Origin: Bacteroidota bacterium
Lineage (GTDB): Bacteria; Bacteroidota; Ignavibacteria; Ignavibacteriales; Melioribacteraceae
Direction: 5' to 3'
NCBI GenBank assembly: GCA_018829545.1
Contig: JAHJTX010000217.1
Coordinates: forward strand, 1 to 39,819
DNA: 39,819 bases
Part shown: one piece after another, positions 28,761-38,199 of the stretch
Layout of the letters: each line of letters begins with the position of its first letter
Position numbering within the stretch: position 1 is the stretch's first letter
Translations under genes and position numbers: made by a program
Notes under the pieces: generated by a model
What the model was told of the DNA's origin: nothing
The model's database searches: none
The model's input: only the letters and a program-made list of their open reading frames with translations

Positions 28761-29369
28761 TTAGAATTCTACTTTTGGAGCTACGTCCGAACCTTCCACA
28801 GCTTGGAAATACTGCTTCTCACCAAAGCCGGCTATTCCAGCTATAAAATTCGCGGGGAATCTTCTTCGTGTTGTGTTATACGTTTGAACTGATTCATTAA
28901 ACTTTTTTCTTTCAACAGAAATTCGATTTTCCGTTCCTTCCAACTGAGCCTGCAACTGAAGGAAATTTTCATTCGCTTTTAATTCCGGATATTTTTCAAC
29001 TGTAACCAGCAATCTTGAAAGCGCGCTGGATAACCCATCCTGAGCAGATTGAAACTGCCTGAATGCATTCGGGTCGTTAAGAATATCGGAAGAAACATTA
29101 ATTTGGTTAACGCGCGATCTTGCTTCTGTGACCGCTGTGAATGTCTCTTTTTCGAAAGCAGCAACGCCTTTAACTGTGTTCACTAAATTTGGAATTAAAT
29201 CCGTTCTACGCTGATATTGATTTTCAACCTGACTCCATGAACTTGTTACTTGTTCATCCATAGTCACAAGGTTATTATAAATTCCAACTCCCCACATCAC
29301 AAGCATTACTCCAACAATGAGCGCCACAGCCAAAACTCCGCCGCATCCAAATAATACTTTTTTATTCAT
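28761..29369 (-). CDS. LemA family protein
   Basis: 202 residues. The N-terminal membrane segment (VLAVALIVGVMLVMWGVGIYN) is followed by a helical domain: LVTMDEQVTSSWSQVENQYQRR, TDLIPNLVNTVKG, and RISVERKKFNESVQTYN. It lies immediately upstream of the TPM gene, a pairing seen widely. Function in the envelope is not established. Confidence 0.93.
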   Translation of the reverse strand: MNKKVLFGCGGVLAVALIVGVMLVMWGVGIYNNLVTMDEQVTSSWSQVENQYQRRTDLIPNLVNTVKGVAAFEKETFTAVTEARSRVNQINVSSDILNDPNAFRQFQSAQDGLSSALSRLLVTVEKYPELKANENFLQLQAQLEGTENRISVERKKFNESVQTYNTTRRRFPANFIAGIAGFGEKQYFQAVEGSDVAPKVEF

Positions 29370-29508
29370 TAGATACTCCCTTAAATTTTTCTCGTATTAA
29401 AAAAGATATAGATTCTTTCAAAATCCTCTCGGAAACATATAAAAATTATAATTAAATAGTTATTCTTGAAGTACAACTAAATTGGAAATGCTAAGGTTTT
29501 TACACTAA

Positions 29509-29763
29509 TTATTCCTCAGATTCTTTCTTTCTCCACGGCGGATTTCCATAATGAAGGTAAAAGCCTTCAACTTTTTCACGCGCCCAGGGAGTTTTTCGCA
29601 GAAATTTTAAACTGGATTTAATAGATGGATCGCTGTTGAAGCAATTTATATTAATATGTCTTCCAAGTTTTTCCCACCCGTAGAAATCAACAAGCTGGGT
29701 CAGTATCTTTTCTAGCGTAATTCCGTGCAGAGGATTATTCTTTTGCTCATCACTCATTTGCAA
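29509..29763 (-). CDS. VF530 family DNA-binding protein (DUF2132)
   Basis: 84 residues. It begins [20 protein letters not shown] and continues [42 protein letters not shown], the full VF530 pattern. The family includes small DNA-binding proteins of unknown role. It stands alone with no neighbour within 50 bp. Confidence 0.9.
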
Positions 29764-29816
29764 ACTCCATAACTAAAATGCAATAGTAGCAAATCGTTAT
29801 AAATAATAATAATTGA

Positions 29817-30230
29817 TTAATTGGTTGTTGTTTTTACAACTATAAGGGTATCTCTAAAATTTGTAAATCCAATTTGCTGCAATGTATCTGCTTCTGCCGA
29901 AGTAATCAAATCCTTGTGCGTTACTTTTACCCAAGTTCTTGTAAGCACAGTACCGCATTTGTTCCACATTTCAAAAAGTATTGCTTTATTTGAATGATCA
30001 TGCGATAAAAATAATCCATATTCAAGAACACCCCAACTAGTTGCTTGAATTTCAAGAGTATCGCTATCTGAACCTTTCTCAACGAAAAATTCAGAAAAAG
30101 AAAACTCTGTCGGTTTTGGTTCTGTTGATGTGCTGCTGCTTTCGCTGCAATTAAATAGAGGTAATGATAATGCGATTGTAATAATCACAACAAATAAATT
30201 ACGGAGATTTAAGAGGTTTCTATTATTCAT
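29817..30230 (-). CDS. Hypothetical lipoprotein
   Basis: 137 residues with a signal peptide and a lipobox ending at Cys28 (LFNC) followed by a Ser/Thr-rich linker. The mature part is mixed strand and helix, with a notable HDHSNKAILFEMWNKCGTVL. I do not recognise a family. Transcribed divergently from the MazEF-like pair. Confidence 0.6.
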   Translation of the reverse strand: MNNRNLLNLRNLFVVIITIALSLPLFNCSESSSTSTEPKPTEFSFSEFFVEKGSDSDTLEIQATSWGVLEYGLFLSHDHSNKAILFEMWNKCGTVLTRTWVKVTHKDLITSAEADTLQQIGFTNFRDTLIVVKTTTN

Positions 30231-30294
30231 ATTTTAATTCTCCTAATTCTTCTTAGAAAATGTTCAAATTTTCCGCGGCTTACCTATCGCGAAT

Positions 30295-30323
30295 TGCTCC
30301 GCAGTTTTTTTGCGCGGAGAGCA
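30295..30323. other. GC-rich hairpin in divergent promoter region
   Basis: TGCTCCGC pairs with GCGG-AGAGCA (two bulged bases) around an 11-base T-rich loop. In this AT-rich intergenic region it stands out, but no T run follows on either strand, so it is not a clear terminator. Confidence 0.4.
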
Positions 30324-30346
30324 TTTGCTTATACTGGAATTTCGCA

Positions 30347-30416
30347 ATATTCTACACCTAATATTACACTTGATTATACGCATATTTTTACACATATTTA
30401 TGGCAATATTTTTACA
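30347..30416 (+). promoter_or_regulatory. Repeated ATATT(TT)TACA boxes upstream of MazEF-like pair
   Basis: The 11-bp word ATATTTTTACA occurs twice with 24-base spacing (30382-30392 and 30406-30416), and the related ATATTCTACA and ATATTACA stand at 30347-30356 and 30361-30368. The nearest is 11 bases before the start codon, after which AAGGAG provides the ribosome site. The array is a plausible autoregulatory operator for the RHH antitoxin. Confidence 0.45.
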
Positions 30417-30427
30417 AAGGAGAAATA

Positions 30428-30682
30428 ATGCCCACTGCTCAATTAACAAATAAAAAAGAACGACTTAGCTTCTTCGTTGATTCAGATTTATCGGAGAGAG
30501 TCAATAAAATTTCCAAGCAGTCAAAAGTAACCGTCAGCGAAATTGCTCGAAAAGCAATACAAAATTTTATTGACCAAATTGAGAATGAGAAAATAGAGAA
30601 AGAACTTGAAGCTGGCTATAAAGCTAATTACGATTATTACTTAAATTCTCAGGCGGATTGGAAATATGCAGACAAAGAATAG
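30428..30682 (+). CDS. Ribbon-helix-helix antitoxin (MazE/CopG-like)
   Basis: 84 residues. The N-terminal part (ERLSFFVDSDLSERVNKISKQSKVTVSEIARKAIQNFID) reads as a ribbon-helix-helix: one beta strand then two helices, with a hydrophilic C-terminal tail (NYDYYLNSQADWKY) that should bind the toxin. It overlaps the toxin gene by 17 bp and is expected to repress the operon. Confidence 0.82.
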   Translation: MPTAQLTNKKERLSFFVDSDLSERVNKISKQSKVTVSEIARKAIQNFIDQIENEKIEKELEAGYKANYDYYLNSQADWKYADKE

Positions 30683-31046
30683 AACTGGTATTATAAATCC
30701 TCTCCTCCGTGGAGATGTTTATCTTGTAAATCTTGACCCAATCATCGGCAAAGAAATAGGGAAATCCCGACCGGCGGTAATAATTCAAAACAATATTGGA
30801 AATAAATTCAGCCCCGTTACAATCATCGCCCCAATCTCAAGTACGAAAGAAATAACCAAACCTCTGCCCATTATGATATTTCTTAAGAAAGGCGAGGCTG
30901 GATTAACGGAAGATAGTTATGTTGATTGTGGGCAAATAAGAACAGTTGATAAAGATGAAAGATTAATTACCAAATTTGGAGCACTAGATAATTCGAAAAT
31001 ACTCGAAGTTGATAAAGCAATAAAAATTTCTCTTTCTCTTCAATAA
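30666..31046 (+). CDS. mazF: MazF/PemK-like endoribonuclease toxin
   Basis: 126 residues. The PemK/MazF fold signatures are GDVYLVNLDPIIGKEIGKSRPAVIIQNN, VTIIAPISSTKEIT and DSYVDCGQIRTVDKDERL. It has an N-terminal extension of 13 residues before the first strand, mostly overlapping the antitoxin gene. It should cleave mRNA. The Gly-Asp start and Arg-Pro-Ala-Val motif are intact, so it looks functional. Confidence 0.9.
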   Translation: MQTKNRTGIINPLLRGDVYLVNLDPIIGKEIGKSRPAVIIQNNIGNKFSPVTIIAPISSTKEITKPLPIMIFLKKGEAGLTEDSYVDCGQIRTVDKDERLITKFGALDNSKILEVDKAIKISLSLQ

Positions 31047-31077
31047 CTCAAAGAACACTTGGAACGAAGAATAGTTT

Positions 31078-31386
31078 TCACGCGTTTCTGAAATATACCT
31101 TTTTCGTAATTTGATAATTATTGCCATCAACTCCTTTCACAACCAGCGTATAAAAATAAATGCCTTCTACTAAATCGTCCACCGGTAAATCAATGCTATG
31201 AGTTCCAGCCGGCAATTTAGTTGATACCGAAAATACTTTTGTATTATATGTGTTTTCTAGATAGAATTCTACATCGGAAGTTTCTGCCAAGGAAAAGTAC
31301 ACTGTGGTTTGAATATTTTCAAGAGGTTCAACTGAATTTGAACAACCGACTAAAATTAATAACGAAATAACCGATAGTAATCTCAT
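31078..31386 (-). CDS. Small lipoprotein with beta-sandwich domain
   Basis: 102 residues with a lipobox ending at Cys15 (LVGC). The mature part has the rhythm of a FlgD-like or sorting-tail-like beta sandwich: VYFSLAETSDVEFYLENTYN, LPAGTHSIDLPVDDLVEGIYFYTLVV and ITKKVYFRNA. This resembles the fold at the end of secreted proteins in this group, here as a lone lipoprotein. It starts 9 bp after the barrel gene's stop. Confidence 0.65.
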   Translation of the reverse strand: MRLLSVISLLILVGCSNSVEPLENIQTTVYFSLAETSDVEFYLENTYNTKVFSVSTKLPAGTHSIDLPVDDLVEGIYFYTLVVKGVDGNNYQITKKVYFRNA

Positions 31387-31395
31387 AGTTCCCTC

Positions 31396-32100
31396 TTAAA
31401 ACTCAAAACAGTAGTTTACGAATAGTTCAACACTCAGAAAATCTTGCGAGTAATTTGATAAGTCTCGATGCTCATTATCATAAATAAGCGAATGTGTATA
31501 AATTGATTTTAGCCCAATTAAATAATTTGAGGATTTTATGTAAAAGTAGATATTTGCTCCCAAACCGAATGAATTTAGTCTATCTTCAAAGTCCCACCAC
31601 TCAGTATTTTCTGATGAAATTGTTCTCAGAAACATCGCTAATGTTGGTCCGACGGCAATATTCATTGAGCTTCCAAGATCAAGCTCATAAGCTAAATTGA
31701 GACTGAATGTTGTTAAAGATAAATCAAATTCATTTGTTTTGCCGCCGGAAGTCAGAGTGGTTGTTTCTATCTCCATTTTTTCAAATGGTTTGCTTTGCTT
31801 CCATTGCAGTTCAACTATTAATTCATTCGGTAATAATTTGTTTTCGAGTAACCCGATATTTGCTCCGTAGATAAGCACCAAATCGGAGAAAGCGTAACTC
31901 TCTTCAGTTACTGAATTATTGTTCTCCGAATTGTAAGCATAGACTCCAATATTTGCACCAACAAAAATATTGTTTGACTGTGAATGGCTGTTGGATTTTA
32001 AAACCAACGAAAATAAAAGCACCACCATAAATATAAATTTCAGTTTTCCTCTGCAGGCTTTAAAAATCAATAAATTTGTGTCAAATAAAACATTATTCAT
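31396..32100 (-). CDS. Outer-membrane beta-barrel protein with VapC-like N-terminal codons
   Basis: The ATG at 32100 follows AAAGAG and overlaps the stop of the upstream antitoxin gene by 8 bp, giving 234 residues. Codons 1-12 encode MNNVLFDTNLLI, the start of a PIN-domain VapC toxin, after which the sequence changes to RGKLKFIFMVVLLFSLVL, a signal peptide, and then alternating strand segments (FSLNLAYELDLGSSMNIAVGP and others) ending VNYCFEF, like an outer-membrane barrel. The likely original start of the barrel gene is the ATG at 32028, or it was lost. The remainder lacks any PIN motif. Confidence 0.65.
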   Translation of the reverse strand: MNNVLFDTNLLIFKACRGKLKFIFMVVLLFSLVLKSNSHSQSNNIFVGANIGVYAYNSENNNSVTEESYAFSDLVLIYGANIGLLENKLLPNELIVELQWKQSKPFEKMEIETTTLTSGGKTNEFDLSLTTFSLNLAYELDLGSSMNIAVGPTLAMFLRTISSENTEWWDFEDRLNSFGLGANIYFYIKSSNYLIGLKSIYTHSLIYDNEHRDLSNYSQDFLSVELFVNYCFEF

Positions 32101-32411: not shown

Positions 32412-35039
32412 TTAAAATGAAAGCTCGAACAACCATCTAATATCAAACGATCTCTCATCTCTTGTCGGCTTGTTTATATAGAAAGGAAAATCAATTCTAA
32501 TAAATTGTAAATCAATCCCAATACCGAAACCATATTTCAATGATCCAAATTTTTTATCCCAAACATTTCCAATATCACAAATTAAATTTATTATACTCAA
32601 TTGAGGTATTGGGATATCGATATTTATTCCGAAACCGTTTTTCCCGTTAAGATGCTGACCTATAAAACCTCGTAAATTTGCATCTCCTTTAATATGCAAA
32701 TTTTCTTGTGTTGATATTTTATTATCCGGATCAACAAACCAATAGGCAAAACTAGACGGTTTTACACTTCCAGATAAATAAACTGCCTCTTGATTGGGAT
32801 AACTACCTCTGACAATTCCCCCGTAAATTCTGAAATTAAACCACCGATTTAGAGTCGGGAAGAAGTTTTCAAGTTCCATAGTTATCTTTGAGTAAGAATA
32901 TCTACCCCCAAACACCTCTTGACCAATTTTTATATTAAAGTGCTCTTTCTCCTTGTTAATCAGTCTATCCCAATCAAATGCTAAAGTAGTATTGGTTCCA
33001 ATTTCATAATCCTTTAAATCAAAATAAGCTATATCATAAATTTGATCACGAGTGATATTAATGTTCACTATATTGTGTTTAAAGTGGTTTTCGTCCTTTT
33101 CAAAATTGTAGTTAACAAATGCCCCATAATTTTCGCTTCCTCTAAAGTTACTCATGTTCATTCCAGCCTCCCATCTGAATGACGGCACACTAACAATGGT
33201 CTTTATGTTAAGTTTATAACCGATTCGCTTTGTTTCAAAGCCATAAAACAAACCGGCTCTCCATTCAACGGGAACTAAATTTCTCTTGATAGATTCGGAG
33301 AATACCGGATAAATATTTGTAGCCCACAAACCCATTCTGACTTTATCTCGTTGACCATAAGTAATAGAAGGATAATAGAAATATTGATCTTCGCTTACAC
33401 TATAATTTGAAAATAGAAATGATATCTTGTTTTTACGCGGATACAAATTATTAGTTCTATCAGCATCTAAAAGATACCAGTACGGATCAACCCCGGCATT
33501 TATGGTTTCTTCTTTTGTAATAAATTCATAAGAAGCGTAATTGTTAAAGAACTGATTTACTTTACCGATAAACTTTTCACCGCTTTTTGTTGTTGCCGAA
33601 ACTTCAAAAGGTACAGTTATTTCACCACGATTCTGTATGTAGACTGTTGTCTTATAATCTCCATTTGGCAGTTTTTCATTGGAGAAATCCGATAATTCAT
33701 AATCCAAAGTCTTATTGGTATTAATCCATTCGGTTATTTGATATTTTAGATTCTTGCCGCTTACTTTCTCAATTGACTTTACCAATTCATCTACAGAAAT
33801 AAAATTAAGACTCTTGTTTTCTATTATCTTTTTTACTGCCAGATCAAATGTGTCTCTGCCAACTTCAGATGCAAGACTTCGTAAAAAATAAAATCCTTTG
33901 TAATATGCTGCCCATTTGTATAATCTACCATCCTTGATAGAAATTTCGGAGAGAGGTTTTTCTTCATAAATGAAATGATCTTTTACTCGGGCTAATTCAT
34001 TTAAGTTGCCGTCAACACCAAAATCCATAAAAAGATTTTTTTTCTTTAAGCTGTTATCTTCCTTTTGAGTAATTCCAATAAAATCCGCATAGGCAAAAGC
34101 AGCAAATTGAGCAAAAGATTCGTTTAAATAATAATCTGGGAAAAACATTCTGATATGTGGGAACCATTGATGAGCAACTTCATGAGCAATTATAAAAACT
34201 CCTAAATCATCAATATTAGCTATCATTTGAGAACTTAAGAGAAATTGTCCGGGTGGAGCATAACCACCTCGTCTCTCTGTTTCAACAATTTTAAAGTCTG
34301 GGAAAGAATAATTCCCGAATTTATCTTGATAATAATTAAGCACATTGCTAAATATCTCAACAAGAGTATCGCTTTTGGATTGATGCTCTGGGAAAAGAAA
34401 GCTTTTGACTTTCATTCCCCTATTTTCGTATTCCTTAATTTCATAAACAGCGGCACTAATACTTAAAAATGATTCGCGTATCTTTGAGCTGTAATAAAAA
34501 GTAGTTTTGCTTTTTGAGGTGTCTCTTTTTAGTAGCTGACCGGAACATACAACGTTCATACTATCGGGTACAGTTACTTTTATGCTAAAGGAAAATTTAT
34601 TGTCGGGGATTTCATTGCTTACACGAGGATAAAAATTTGATTCATAAAGCAGCCAAGAACTTTTAGCGTCGATTCTATTTGATACCCACCCTTGATAAAT
34701 GCCTTCATAATTCAGCTTTATTGCGATACTATCATCCAAAGTATGTCTAAGCCAAATAATTACTTTCTCATTTTCCTTGGAAAATTCCAGATCATTGCCA
34801 TAAATATCTCTTACCGAATTGATCCGATCACAGTTTAAAAATAGTTCTACTTTTTCTATAACATCTTTATTTAAGCATTTAATTGTTAATTCAGATTCTG
34901 CAATTAATTTGTGAGCTTCAGGAAATATTTCGAATTGCAAATTATAATGTGTTATTTCAATACTCTGTGAAGAAGCAAAGCAATAAGAAAGAAAAGTTAG
35001 CGGTATCAGAAATTTTGTAAATGAATAATTGTTTTTCAT
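32412..35039 (-). CDS. M1-family metallopeptidase fused to an Omp85-like outer-membrane barrel
   Basis: 875 residues. After a signal peptide (ending ~FASSQS) come an N-terminal beta-domain (30-200) and an M1-type catalytic domain with HEVAHQW at 286-292, the third zinc ligand Glu307 in YLNESF, and a Tyr-Tyr-Lys-Gly (379-382) that fits the catalytic tyrosine. The spacing from the second His to Glu is 16 rather than the usual 18, and the exopeptidase GxMEN motif is replaced by GGYAPPGQ. From about residue 540 to the end the sequence alternates like a beta-barrel, with LRGF at 789-792, CDIGNVWD, GFGIGIDLQFIRIDFPFYI and a final Phe, the marks of the Omp85/BamA barrel. No POTRA domain is visible. 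Confidence 0.82.
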   Translation of the reverse strand: MKNNYSFTKFLIPLTFLSYCFASSQSIEITHYNLQFEIFPEAHKLIAESELTIKCLNKDVIEKVELFLNCDRINSVRDIYGNDLEFSKENEKVIIWLRHTLDDSIAIKLNYEGIYQGWVSNRIDAKSSWLLYESNFYPRVSNEIPDNKFSFSIKVTVPDSMNVVCSGQLLKRDTSKSKTTFYYSSKIRESFLSISAAVYEIKEYENRGMKVKSFLFPEHQSKSDTLVEIFSNVLNYYQDKFGNYSFPDFKIVETERRGGYAPPGQFLLSSQMIANIDDLGVFIIAHEVAHQWFPHIRMFFPDYYLNESFAQFAAFAYADFIGITQKEDNSLKKKNLFMDFGVDGNLNELARVKDHFIYEEKPLSEISIKDGRLYKWAAYYKGFYFLRSLASEVGRDTFDLAVKKIIENKSLNFISVDELVKSIEKVSGKNLKYQITEWINTNKTLDYELSDFSNEKLPNGDYKTTVYIQNRGEITVPFEVSATTKSGEKFIGKVNQFFNNYASYEFITKEETINAGVDPYWYLLDADRTNNLYPRKNKISFLFSNYSVSEDQYFYYPSITYGQRDKVRMGLWATNIYPVFSESIKRNLVPVEWRAGLFYGFETKRIGYKLNIKTIVSVPSFRWEAGMNMSNFRGSENYGAFVNYNFEKDENHFKHNIVNINITRDQIYDIAYFDLKDYEIGTNTTLAFDWDRLINKEKEHFNIKIGQEVFGGRYSYSKITMELENFFPTLNRWFNFRIYGGIVRGSYPNQEAVYLSGSVKPSSFAYWFVDPDNKISTQENLHIKGDANLRGFIGQHLNGKNGFGINIDIPIPQLSIINLICDIGNVWDKKFGSLKYGFGIGIDLQFIRIDFPFYINKPTRDERSFDIRWLFELSF

Positions 35040-35247: not shown

Positions 35248-38199
35248 TCAATTCTTAACATCATCTTTAAATTCAGAATTGACCATGATTTTTTCAAATA
35301 TTTCTTGGTTAGCATCCATCCGGTCTATCAAAGTCTGGATGAAAACTTCGTCAAAAGCATATTTGAAATTTTCTATTGGATTATTTTTCGCACGAACTTT
35401 CAGATCATTGTTTTCGAATAATGCTTGTTCTATTTGTTCAAAATACAATCTATCTTGATCTGTGAAATCGAAATTATACTTATCATTAAGAAGTGAGATA
35501 ATATTAGAAAGTTTATCTTTCTCCTCTTTCTCTCTGCTAATTCCGGCTTCAGTAATTGGGTCGAGACTATGCTGTCCTTGTACCTGAAGCACTAAATCAT
35601 CCTCTGCAATTTTTTGTAGACAGTAATATTCCAAAGCTACTTCGTTATCTAACTTCAATCTTTCTGTGTAATCTACTTTTGGAAGTTTTGTTAATAAAAA
35701 TCGCCCGAATGAATAAAGCTTTTCTAAATCAACATCTTGGAAGGGTATAATTTGAGAAAGAAATGAATAGATGCGGATAAATGAAGTTAGCGATTTCTTA
35801 AACTCGTCTTGTTGTTCTTCATCAAATGATTTAAAGCGATCAACAGCGGGATCAATAAAAGCGTACAATTTTCCTTGATCTCTTACTGACGCGCTTTCAG
35901 GTTTGTAGAATATTTTTGAAAATGCATCAACTTCAGATTGGAAATATACTTGAGCTGTATCAGTTTTGCCTTTTAAGTCATAAAGGTGATTTGGATCGGT
36001 GGTATCACTCATCATTGTCCTTTCATAGTAGGGTTGGAATGAATCCACTATTGTCTGTCGGTCATTAGCAAAATCCAAAACAAACGTATCCTCTTTGCCT
36101 GGACAAGTTCTATTCAACCGTGATAATGTTTGAACCGCTTTTACTCCGGATAACATTTTATCAACATACATCGTATGCAATAATGGCTGATCGAAGCCAT
36201 ATTGATATTTATCAGCTACAAGCAGGACTTGATATTCATTAGTGTTAAACTTATCCGGTAATTCTTTTTCACCGAATTTATTTAATTGTGGTTCAGTTAC
36301 ACCATCGGGATAGAGGTCATCAATTAAAGAACCAGAAAACGCCACAAGCGGTCTTATGCCTTTATAACCCTTCTCTTTTATGTAATCTTTAAATTCCAGA
36401 TAAAATTTTAATGCGTGTTTGCGCGATGCTGTTACGACCATTGCTTTTGCCTTTCCCCCGATCTTCTTCATTGTAACTTGGCGGAAATGTTCAACCATAA
36501 CTTCAGTTTTTTGAGCAAGATTAGTGGGGTGAAGAGAAGCAAATCTACCAATAGCTCTAACCGTTTTCTTTTTATTTAATAGCGGATCATCTTCAATGGT
36601 TTTATTAAATCTATAATAGGTTTCATAAGTTGTATAGTTTTTCAGCACATCAAGGATGAATCCTTCTTCAATTGCTTGACGCATTGAGTAAAGGTGAAAT
36701 GGTTTCGGCTTTCCTTCAGCATCTTTAGTCCCAAAAACTTCTAATGTTTTTGGTTTGGGCGTGGCTGTAAAAGCGAACAGACTTATATTTTCTTGCGGAC
36801 CTCTTTTCTGAATTACTTCTCTAATGTAATCGTCTTCGTCCTGTACATTAGCTTCAATTTCACCTTTAACTTTTGCCGATTCTTCCAATGAAACATTTTT
36901 GCCTACAAGCGCTTCGGTCATTTTGCGGCTTGATTCTCCGCCTTGACTGCTGTGAGCTTCATCAATGATAACAGCATATTTCCTATTTGGAATTTCTGAT
37001 AAATGATTCAGAGCAAAAGGAAATTTTTGAAGCGTAGTAATAATTATACTTACCCCGCTTGTTATTGCTTCCGCCAATTGTTTAGAGTCAACTTCAATTC
37101 TTTTAACCACACCGGATTTATGCTCAAACTGATAAATTGTGTTTTGCAATTGCTGGTCGAGTACATTCCTATCTGTAATAACAATTACCGAATCAAAAAT
37201 CTTTTTATCGAACGCATCGTAAAGAGAGGATAAACGATAAGCAAGCCAGGCAATTGAGTTACTTTTACCGCTTCCGGCTGAGTGCTCTATTAAATATCTT
37301 TGACCGCTTCCGTTTGTTTTAGAATCAGCAATAAGCTTTCTCACAACATCAAGTTGGTGGAACCTTGGGCAAAGCATTGCTTCTTTGTAATACTTTTTAC
37401 CCTCAACTGTGTATTCTTCCTTTTGAAGGTGAACATATCTGCCAATAATCTCCGACCAACTATCAACCGATAAAATATCTTCCCAAAAGTAAGCCGAGCG
37501 GTTAGTTGTGTAATCCTTTGCTGGTGGATTTCCGGCACCGTTGTTGAACCCTTTGTTAAACGGGAAAAATCTTGTTCTACTGCTTTCAAGTTTTGTTGTA
37601 AAATATACTTCATCGGGATCGACTGTAAAATGAACGATGGCTCTTTTCTTGAATTGGAATAATAACTCTTTAGGGTCGGGGCTGGTTTTATATTGTTCTA
37701 TGGCTTCTTTTACTCTTTGCCCCGTGAAATGATTTTTAAGTTCTATTGTAGCAACCGGCAGACCGTTTAACGAAAGAAGAAGATCAATGCTTTTTTTGTT
37801 TTTGGCAGAAAAATAAACTTGCTTTGTTACATAGTGTTTATTTAGACTGTATTGTTTAAGTGTATCGGGATTAAGTCCACTATCCGGTTTAAAGTAAGCA
37901 AGTTTGAATTTTACGCCGCTATCGGTTATTCCGTGACGGATAACATCGAGCATTCCGCGTAAATCCAATTCTTTAAATAATCGTTGGATGAATTTGTTTT
38001 CGACTTCTTCTTTGTAATATGATTTTAATAAATCCCATTCTTTAGGTTGTGAGGTTTGAATAAAGTTCATGATTGCTTTTTTATCCAAAGCGATTTCACT
38101 GTTGAAATCCGATGCGTTCCCTTCAAACCAGCCATTACTGGTTAGATGCGCAATTATAGCCGATTCGAATGTTGATTCTGTGTGGATAAAACTAGCCAT
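35248..38199 (-). CDS. hsdR: Type I restriction endonuclease subunit R
   Basis: 983 residues. An N-terminal nuclease domain has KSIDLLLSLNGLPVATIELKN with Asp139, Glu153 and Lys155 of the PD-(D/E)XK site. The motor follows: Walker A SAGSGKS (307-313), DEAH at 413-416, FAFTATP and a late LLVADKYQYGFDQP ... VQTLSRLNRTCPG. It cuts and translocates DNA in complex with HsdM and HsdS, neither of which is in the window. It begins 2 bp after the stop of the PIN-like toxin remnant, so it was probably expressed together with it. Confidence 0.95.
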   Translation of the reverse strand: MASFIHTESTFESAIIAHLTSNGWFEGNASDFNSEIALDKKAIMNFIQTSQPKEWDLLKSYYKEEVENKFIQRLFKELDLRGMLDVIRHGITDSGVKFKLAYFKPDSGLNPDTLKQYSLNKHYVTKQVYFSAKNKKSIDLLLSLNGLPVATIELKNHFTGQRVKEAIEQYKTSPDPKELLFQFKKRAIVHFTVDPDEVYFTTKLESSRTRFFPFNKGFNNGAGNPPAKDYTTNRSAYFWEDILSVDSWSEIIGRYVHLQKEEYTVEGKKYYKEAMLCPRFHQLDVVRKLIADSKTNGSGQRYLIEHSAGSGKSNSIAWLAYRLSSLYDAFDKKIFDSVIVITDRNVLDQQLQNTIYQFEHKSGVVKRIEVDSKQLAEAITSGVSIIITTLQKFPFALNHLSEIPNRKYAVIIDEAHSSQGGESSRKMTEALVGKNVSLEESAKVKGEIEANVQDEDDYIREVIQKRGPQENISLFAFTATPKPKTLEVFGTKDAEGKPKPFHLYSMRQAIEEGFILDVLKNYTTYETYYRFNKTIEDDPLLNKKKTVRAIGRFASLHPTNLAQKTEVMVEHFRQVTMKKIGGKAKAMVVTASRKHALKFYLEFKDYIKEKGYKGIRPLVAFSGSLIDDLYPDGVTEPQLNKFGEKELPDKFNTNEYQVLLVADKYQYGFDQPLLHTMYVDKMLSGVKAVQTLSRLNRTCPGKEDTFVLDFANDRQTIVDSFQPYYERTMMSDTTDPNHLYDLKGKTDTAQVYFQSEVDAFSKIFYKPESASVRDQGKLYAFIDPAVDRFKSFDEEQQDEFKKSLTSFIRIYSFLSQIIPFQDVDLEKLYSFGRFLLTKLPKVDYTERLKLDNEVALEYYCLQKIAEDDLVLQVQGQHSLDPITEAGISREKEEKDKLSNIISLLNDKYNFDFTDQDRLYFEQIEQALFENNDLKVRAKNNPIENFKYAFDEVFIQTLIDRMDANQEIFEKIMVNSEFKDDVKN

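Follow-up and report, generated by a model that had tools for sequence, protein, structure and literature searches.

A predicted periplasmic zinc peptidase fused to an Omp85-related barrel in Ignavibacteria

Omp85 proteins are best known for protein insertion and translocation and, to our knowledge, PlpD is the clear exception among those studied so far. A gene on an Ignavibacteria contig (the window, meaning the whole 39,819-nucleotide stretch that was analysed) appears to place a zinc peptidase directly ahead of an Omp85-like barrel. We asked whether both halves are what they seem, whether their union is more than an accident of one genome, and what such a protein might do.

The gene, its orthologs and its peptidase domain

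The protein is encoded by a single 875-codon open reading frame on the minus strand, running from 35039 to 32412. The original prediction had located this 875-residue frame correctly but missed its strand; the plus strand at 32412-35039 is closed by stops and has no open frame. The features of the gene are as follows, with their basis in brackets.

32412..35039, minus strand: whole gene, an M1-like peptidase plus Omp85-like barrel of 875 aa (ORF, PF01433, orthologs, barrel profiles)
34965..35039, minus strand: putative Sec signal peptide, residues 1-25, MKNNYSFTKFLIPLTFLSYCFASSQ (read from the sequence by eye)
34374..34964, minus strand: N-terminal beta domain of the M1 fold, residues ~26-222 (phmmer alignments to M1 structures extend here; boundaries approximate)
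33705..34373, minus strand: gluzincin catalytic domain, residues ~223-445 (PF01433 and 3q7j alignment)
34254..34268, minus strand: GGYAP, residues 258-262, replacing GxMEN / GGMEY (family alignment)
34170..34184, minus strand: HEVAH zinc-binding motif, residues 286-290 (invariant in 20/20 family members)
34119..34121, minus strand: Glu307, third zinc ligand, x16 spacing (invariant in 20/20)
33903..33905, minus strand: Tyr379 of the YxKG motif, equivalent of the catalytic Tyr (invariant in 20/20)
33447..33704, minus strand: M1 C-terminal beta-sandwich ending DADRTNN, residues ~446-531 (colinear with the family; N531 invariant)
32415..33395, minus strand: Omp85-like barrel, residues ~549-875 (profile of relatives; profile-profile comparison)
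32664..32675, minus strand: LRGF, loop L6 landmark, residues 789-792 (barrel alignment)
32559..32576, minus strand: DIGNVW, beta-13 landmark, residues 822-827, with Asp822 (barrel alignment)
32415..32444, minus strand: C-terminal beta-signal-like end DIRWLFELSF (hydrophobics alternate and the last residue is Phe, as judged from the sequence; kept in orthologs)

Two full-length orthologs were found in Ignavibacteria MAGs, one 83% identical (L001, the same gene as in G168) and one 75% identical (L002), together with a 49% identical ortholog in G151 that ends at residue 522, at the end of its contig. Of 79 genomes of the window's family, only 3 contain a member of this window clade. Among the window protein, L001 and L002, the peptidase part has a dN/dS of 0.16-0.23 and the barrel one of 0.13-0.18, indicating that purifying selection maintains both halves. 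The genes next to the three orthologs differ, being HsdR in the window, ABC transporter permeases in L001 and GDP-sugar genes in L002 (the latter two sets named from reading the protein sequences). There is no conserved operon partner among the three, and their differing neighbours thus indicate neither a partner nor a substrate. In the window, the gene directly upstream encodes an HsdR-like type I restriction subunit (35248-38199, minus strand), and a ribbon-helix-helix antitoxin gene adjoins a PemK/MazF-type toxin gene at 30428-31046 (plus strand).

PF01433 (Peptidase_M1) matched residues 281-438 (E 1.6e-14, 54.5 bits against a cut-off of 27.7), and the top PDB matches of the peptidase were M1 aminopeptidases, among them tricorn-interacting factor F3 (3q7j, E 1.2e-7). 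The zinc-peptidase motif HEVAHQW starts at residue 286 and is followed by Glu307, as had been predicted, and H286, E287, H290, E307 and Y379 are all retained. A Pfam scan of the protein found no patatin domain.

Two departures from M1 enzymes, already noticed in the original prediction, were real and specific to a clade. GGYAP occupies the GxMEN position in all four members of the window clade, and the spacing in the window protein and its three orthologs is HExxHx16E, against x18 in homologous M1 structures in the PDB and in ordinary members of the family. Ordinary members have GGMEY(P) and HExxHx18E, with the Glu of MEY kept in 17 of 17, whereas Ala261 takes its place in the window protein, L001 and L002. 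What the prediction had not recognised is that loss of the exopeptidase motif is confined to this small clade within a larger family. In M1 enzymes the Glu of GxMEN binds the free amino group of the substrate, so with Ala at this site strict aminopeptidase behaviour is expected to be lost in the window clade. Because of the x16 spacing, we class the window protein, on its sequence, as an M1-homologous gluzincin and predicted peptidase rather than a canonical M1 aminopeptidase.

The missing GxMEN and the zinc spacing two residues shorter might be taken as signs of a pseudo-peptidase, in which a domain without catalytic activity serves as a scaffold or for binding where a POTRA domain would be. 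We regard this as very unlikely, since all 20 aligned family members keep the zinc ligands (His, His, Glu), the general base Glu and the YxKG Tyr unchanged, and purifying selection acts on the catalytic region. The x16 spacing also recurs in L032, an unrelated M1-like protein, on a long branch whose placement relative to the window clade the tree does not resolve.

Relationship of the C-terminal barrel to Omp85

The C-terminal barrel of the window protein is about 326 residues long. No Pfam model matched residues 549-875, and PF01103 (Omp85) matched 0 of 17 family barrels at E up to 1; Pfam detects six other Omp85 proteins in the window's genome. A profile built from the 17 barrels and searched against the whole PDB (E up to 10) matched 42 sequences, all of them BamA (best E 3e-4), which goes against the possibility, raised with the original prediction, that this region resembles M1 C-terminal domains alone. 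Comparison by hhalign of the barrel set with an Omp85 set (the six proteins of the window's genome plus E. coli BamA and TamA) gave 95.3% (E 2e-8). The window triplet alone gave 84.5% against the Omp85 set and 99.6%, over its full length, against the rest of the family. When the barrel set was compared with single E. coli proteins, BamA gave 80.7%, TamA only 1.6%, and LptD, FadL and BtuB 0.1-0.3%. The similarity to BamA lies mostly in the barrel's second half.

Both sequence landmarks that first suggested an Omp85 barrel are there: LRGF occupies residues 789-792 and IRIDFPFYI residues 847-855. The barrel alignment places R790 and G791 in the RGF loop and D822 on beta-13. Across the fused barrels the Arg and Asp landmarks are mostly kept or lost together: 13 have both, and most of those without the Arg are also without the Asp. 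A Pfam scan at E up to 1 found no POTRA domain in the window protein, and the segment preceding the barrel is the M1 beta-sandwich. Thus, the proposal that an M1-like peptidase stands in the place of POTRA domains before an Omp85-related barrel was borne out by the PF01433 match, the BamA profile matches and hhalign, and the barrel is, on these comparisons, related to Omp85.

Amphipathic stretches can be read as 11 strands before and 5 after the L6 RGF loop, which is the pattern of a 16-strand Omp85 barrel, but the scan is nonspecific, giving 19 peaks each for the window barrel, BamA and TamA; the peptidase half scores too, which makes the count weak evidence. AlphaFold models from a shallow three-sequence input had mean pLDDT values of 29.8 (full protein) and 31.5 (barrel alone), and were poor because alignment depth was lacking.

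A barrel so related could itself be a working Omp85 machine that inserts or translocates proteins, with the peptidase as a quality-control partner in cis, much like BepA, which acts at BAM in E. coli (PMC8423444). The window barrel retains the RGF and Asp landmarks that some ordinary members have lost, and between orthologs the barrel is more conserved than the peptidase. However, the protein has no POTRA for receiving clients and no partner genes, and several family members have neither landmark, so insertase function would not be general. We consider this reading unlikely.

A wider family and its history

The fusion is widespread in the phylum, its frequency having been one of the points that the original prediction left to be checked. 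Fused M1 and barrel proteins occur in at least 19 GTDB families (class and phylum searches combined), and at least 34 of 296 sampled genomes have a fused copy, with matches running into the barrel; these figures are lower bounds, since scoring was limited to the top two candidates of each genome. The prediction had overlooked both the ordinary GGMEYP members and the second M1-barrel protein in the window's own genome (G000:C7, 1001 aa), which is of that ordinary type. The fused proteins are about 990-1200 aa long and follow the window protein colinearly, starting with the M1 N-terminal domain and ending with the final strand of the barrel, in the order M1, beta-sandwich and barrel (for example G000:C7, L005 and L055), but differ from it in length, in GGMEY(P) and in x18. 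The two close orthologs and the 49% identical one, the dN/dS values and this recurrent domain order together put the fusion far beyond chance.

The edges of the family are varied. One divergent copy (L147) was found by profile comparison alone (96.6%), and four proteins (L156, L157, L158 and L166) have barrel-like ends that gave no significant profile match. One genome carries a tandem pair of fused genes (L100:3015-9637). A 54-aa open stretch (L045, G418:C40 54065-54202) matches the last strands of the window barrel alone, at 52%, with a stop upstream, and is a probable gene remnant. Other lineages carry just a 620-640 aa version that has no barrel, and since many ordinary relatives are barrel-less, the barrel is not required for such peptidases generally. 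A scan of IMG/VR for further members returned just four M1-like matches, all barrel-less.

Barrels of this kind also occur alone, as relatives of 400-465 aa (L090-L095, L097, L098 and L101, in families f37 and f38), and both landmarks are present in 22 of 22 stand-alone barrels. In f38 the gene lies in a conserved order between GreA/NUDIX and acetate kinase / caspase-like genes, the neighbours having been identified in L090 and matched in other genomes by the same ORF sizes. We considered whether stand-alone barrels are split partners of an M1 gene and rejected this, as the f38 copies are flanked by NUDIX/GreA and acetate kinase, not M1.

The barrel tree separates every fused barrel from the stand-alone barrels of the two families (100%). 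Within the fused set, the window clade nests, not strongly, with barrels from its own class. The peptidase tree places the window clade apart from the main fused clade, on a long branch with a poorly resolved position. Grouping it with the main fused clade gave P = 0.64 in an AU test, so that a single origin of the fusion was not rejected. Two independent fusions were set aside as an explanation, given that long branches meet in the peptidase tree, the AU result and the nesting in the barrel tree. The simplest reading of these sequences is one ancient fusion followed by several losses of the barrel, with the window protein in a fast-evolving side branch.

Proposed function and comparison with known systems

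We propose, with reasonable though not high confidence, that the protein works as a zinc peptidase in the periplasm, tied to the outer membrane through an Omp85-type barrel, the window clade probably accepting substrates without a free N-terminus. We infer its membrane insertion, topology, activity and substrate as follows. Sec would export the protein, BAM would insert the C-terminal barrel into the outer membrane, and the M1-like domain would stay folded in the periplasm directly below the barrel, where BamA has its POTRAs. Ordinary members would probably be tethered aminopeptidases that trim periplasmic peptides, and the window clade, with Ala for Glu, may be an endopeptidase or have a special substrate. 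The tethered peptidase is favoured by the PF01433 match, the invariant catalytic residues, the Glu-to-Ala change confined to the window clade, the profile matches to BamA only, the hhalign comparisons, the landmarks, the 11 and 5 readable strands, dN/dS and the precedent of PlpD, whose patatin domain was experimentally shown to remain periplasmic (PMC11116518). Set against it are the low-pLDDT models, the 0 of 17 PF01103 matches, a likeness to BamA limited to the barrel's second half, the absence of informative neighbours and the barrel-less relatives.

The same precedent bears on surface display, in which the barrel would carry the peptidase across the outer membrane, in a 'type Vd'-like manner, to act on external proteins. 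Free-living and presumably peptide-using hosts would suit such a role, and it was once claimed for PlpD, but that claim was experimentally overturned (both discussed in PMC11116518). Omp85 topology puts the N-terminus in the periplasm, and a large globular M1 domain would need unfolding for passage, leaving this explanation with a slim chance. A tethered periplasmic peptidase is thus more likely than surface display, than an insertase with a peptidase in cis or than a dead peptidase. A bolder proposal, which we hold with low confidence, is that M1-Omp85 proteins form an undescribed phylum-wide subfamily whose barrel serves as an active conduit or insertase, with the peptidase processing polypeptides that pass or stall at the outer membrane and the GGYAP clade having turned from aminopeptidase to endopeptidase.

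A peptidase-Omp85 class in at least 19 families of a major phylum would mean that the barrel has been taken over widely to anchor (or gate) hydrolases in the periplasm. With GGMEY and GGYAP clades sharing a scaffold, there is a natural contrast in which exopeptidase versus endopeptidase specificity can be tested directly.

Enzyme-Omp85 fusions are known; the M1-Omp85 form is undescribed in the literature covered. The 2014 survey by Heinz and Lithgow lists ten Omp85 subfamilies, including patatin, 'Metallo', WD40 and 'noNterm' types, none of them M1 (PMC4104836). The original prediction had named no characterised member, and our full-text literature searches, with subscription journals and preprints outside their coverage, likewise found no M1-Omp85 protein; nor did keyword searches of a 2026 BAM review and 2025 papers on Bacteroidota BAM. 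Since neither the survey nor the searches contained an M1 type, we take M1-Omp85 as a new form of enzyme-Omp85 fusion.

Omp85-type barrels in the window's genome follow M1 (twice), patatin, endonuclease/phosphatase and Peptidase_MA domains. The patatin-POTRA-Omp85 protein is PlpD-like (G000:C233, L119:668-3370, 901 aa), and a 626-aa protein joins an Endonuclease/exonuclease/phosphatase domain to an Omp85 barrel (G000:C50, L121:460-2337). A 950-aa protein combines Peptidase_MA_2 (HELVH), a PD40 propeller and an Omp85 barrel (G000:C297 ~29032-31881, L122:533-3382); it resembles the WD40-Omp85 class, but its N-terminal zinc-peptidase domain is absent from the survey text (PMC4104836).

The M1-barrel protein can be set beside four known systems. 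M1 aminopeptidases (PF01433; 3q7j, 1z1w, 3cia) have their catalytic fold and residues in common with the window protein, which differs in GGYAP for GxMEN, HExxHx16E for x18 and the added C-terminal barrel. BamA is the sole PDB family matched by the barrel profile and has the RGF and Asp landmarks in common with it, but carries five POTRA domains where the M1-barrel protein has none detectable. POTRA-less Omp85 proteins have already been described (PMC4104836), and the 'noNterm', 'Metallo' and 'WD40' subfamilies, like the protein studied here, are Omp85-type barrels of this sort with other or no N-terminal domains, although the 'Metallo' domain is PF00149 and not an M1 peptidase (PMC4104836). 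PlpD and FplA likewise place an N-terminal hydrolase ahead of an Omp85 barrel; they differ in having patatin in place of M1, in retaining POTRA and in a barrel that matches PF01103, which M1 barrels do not.
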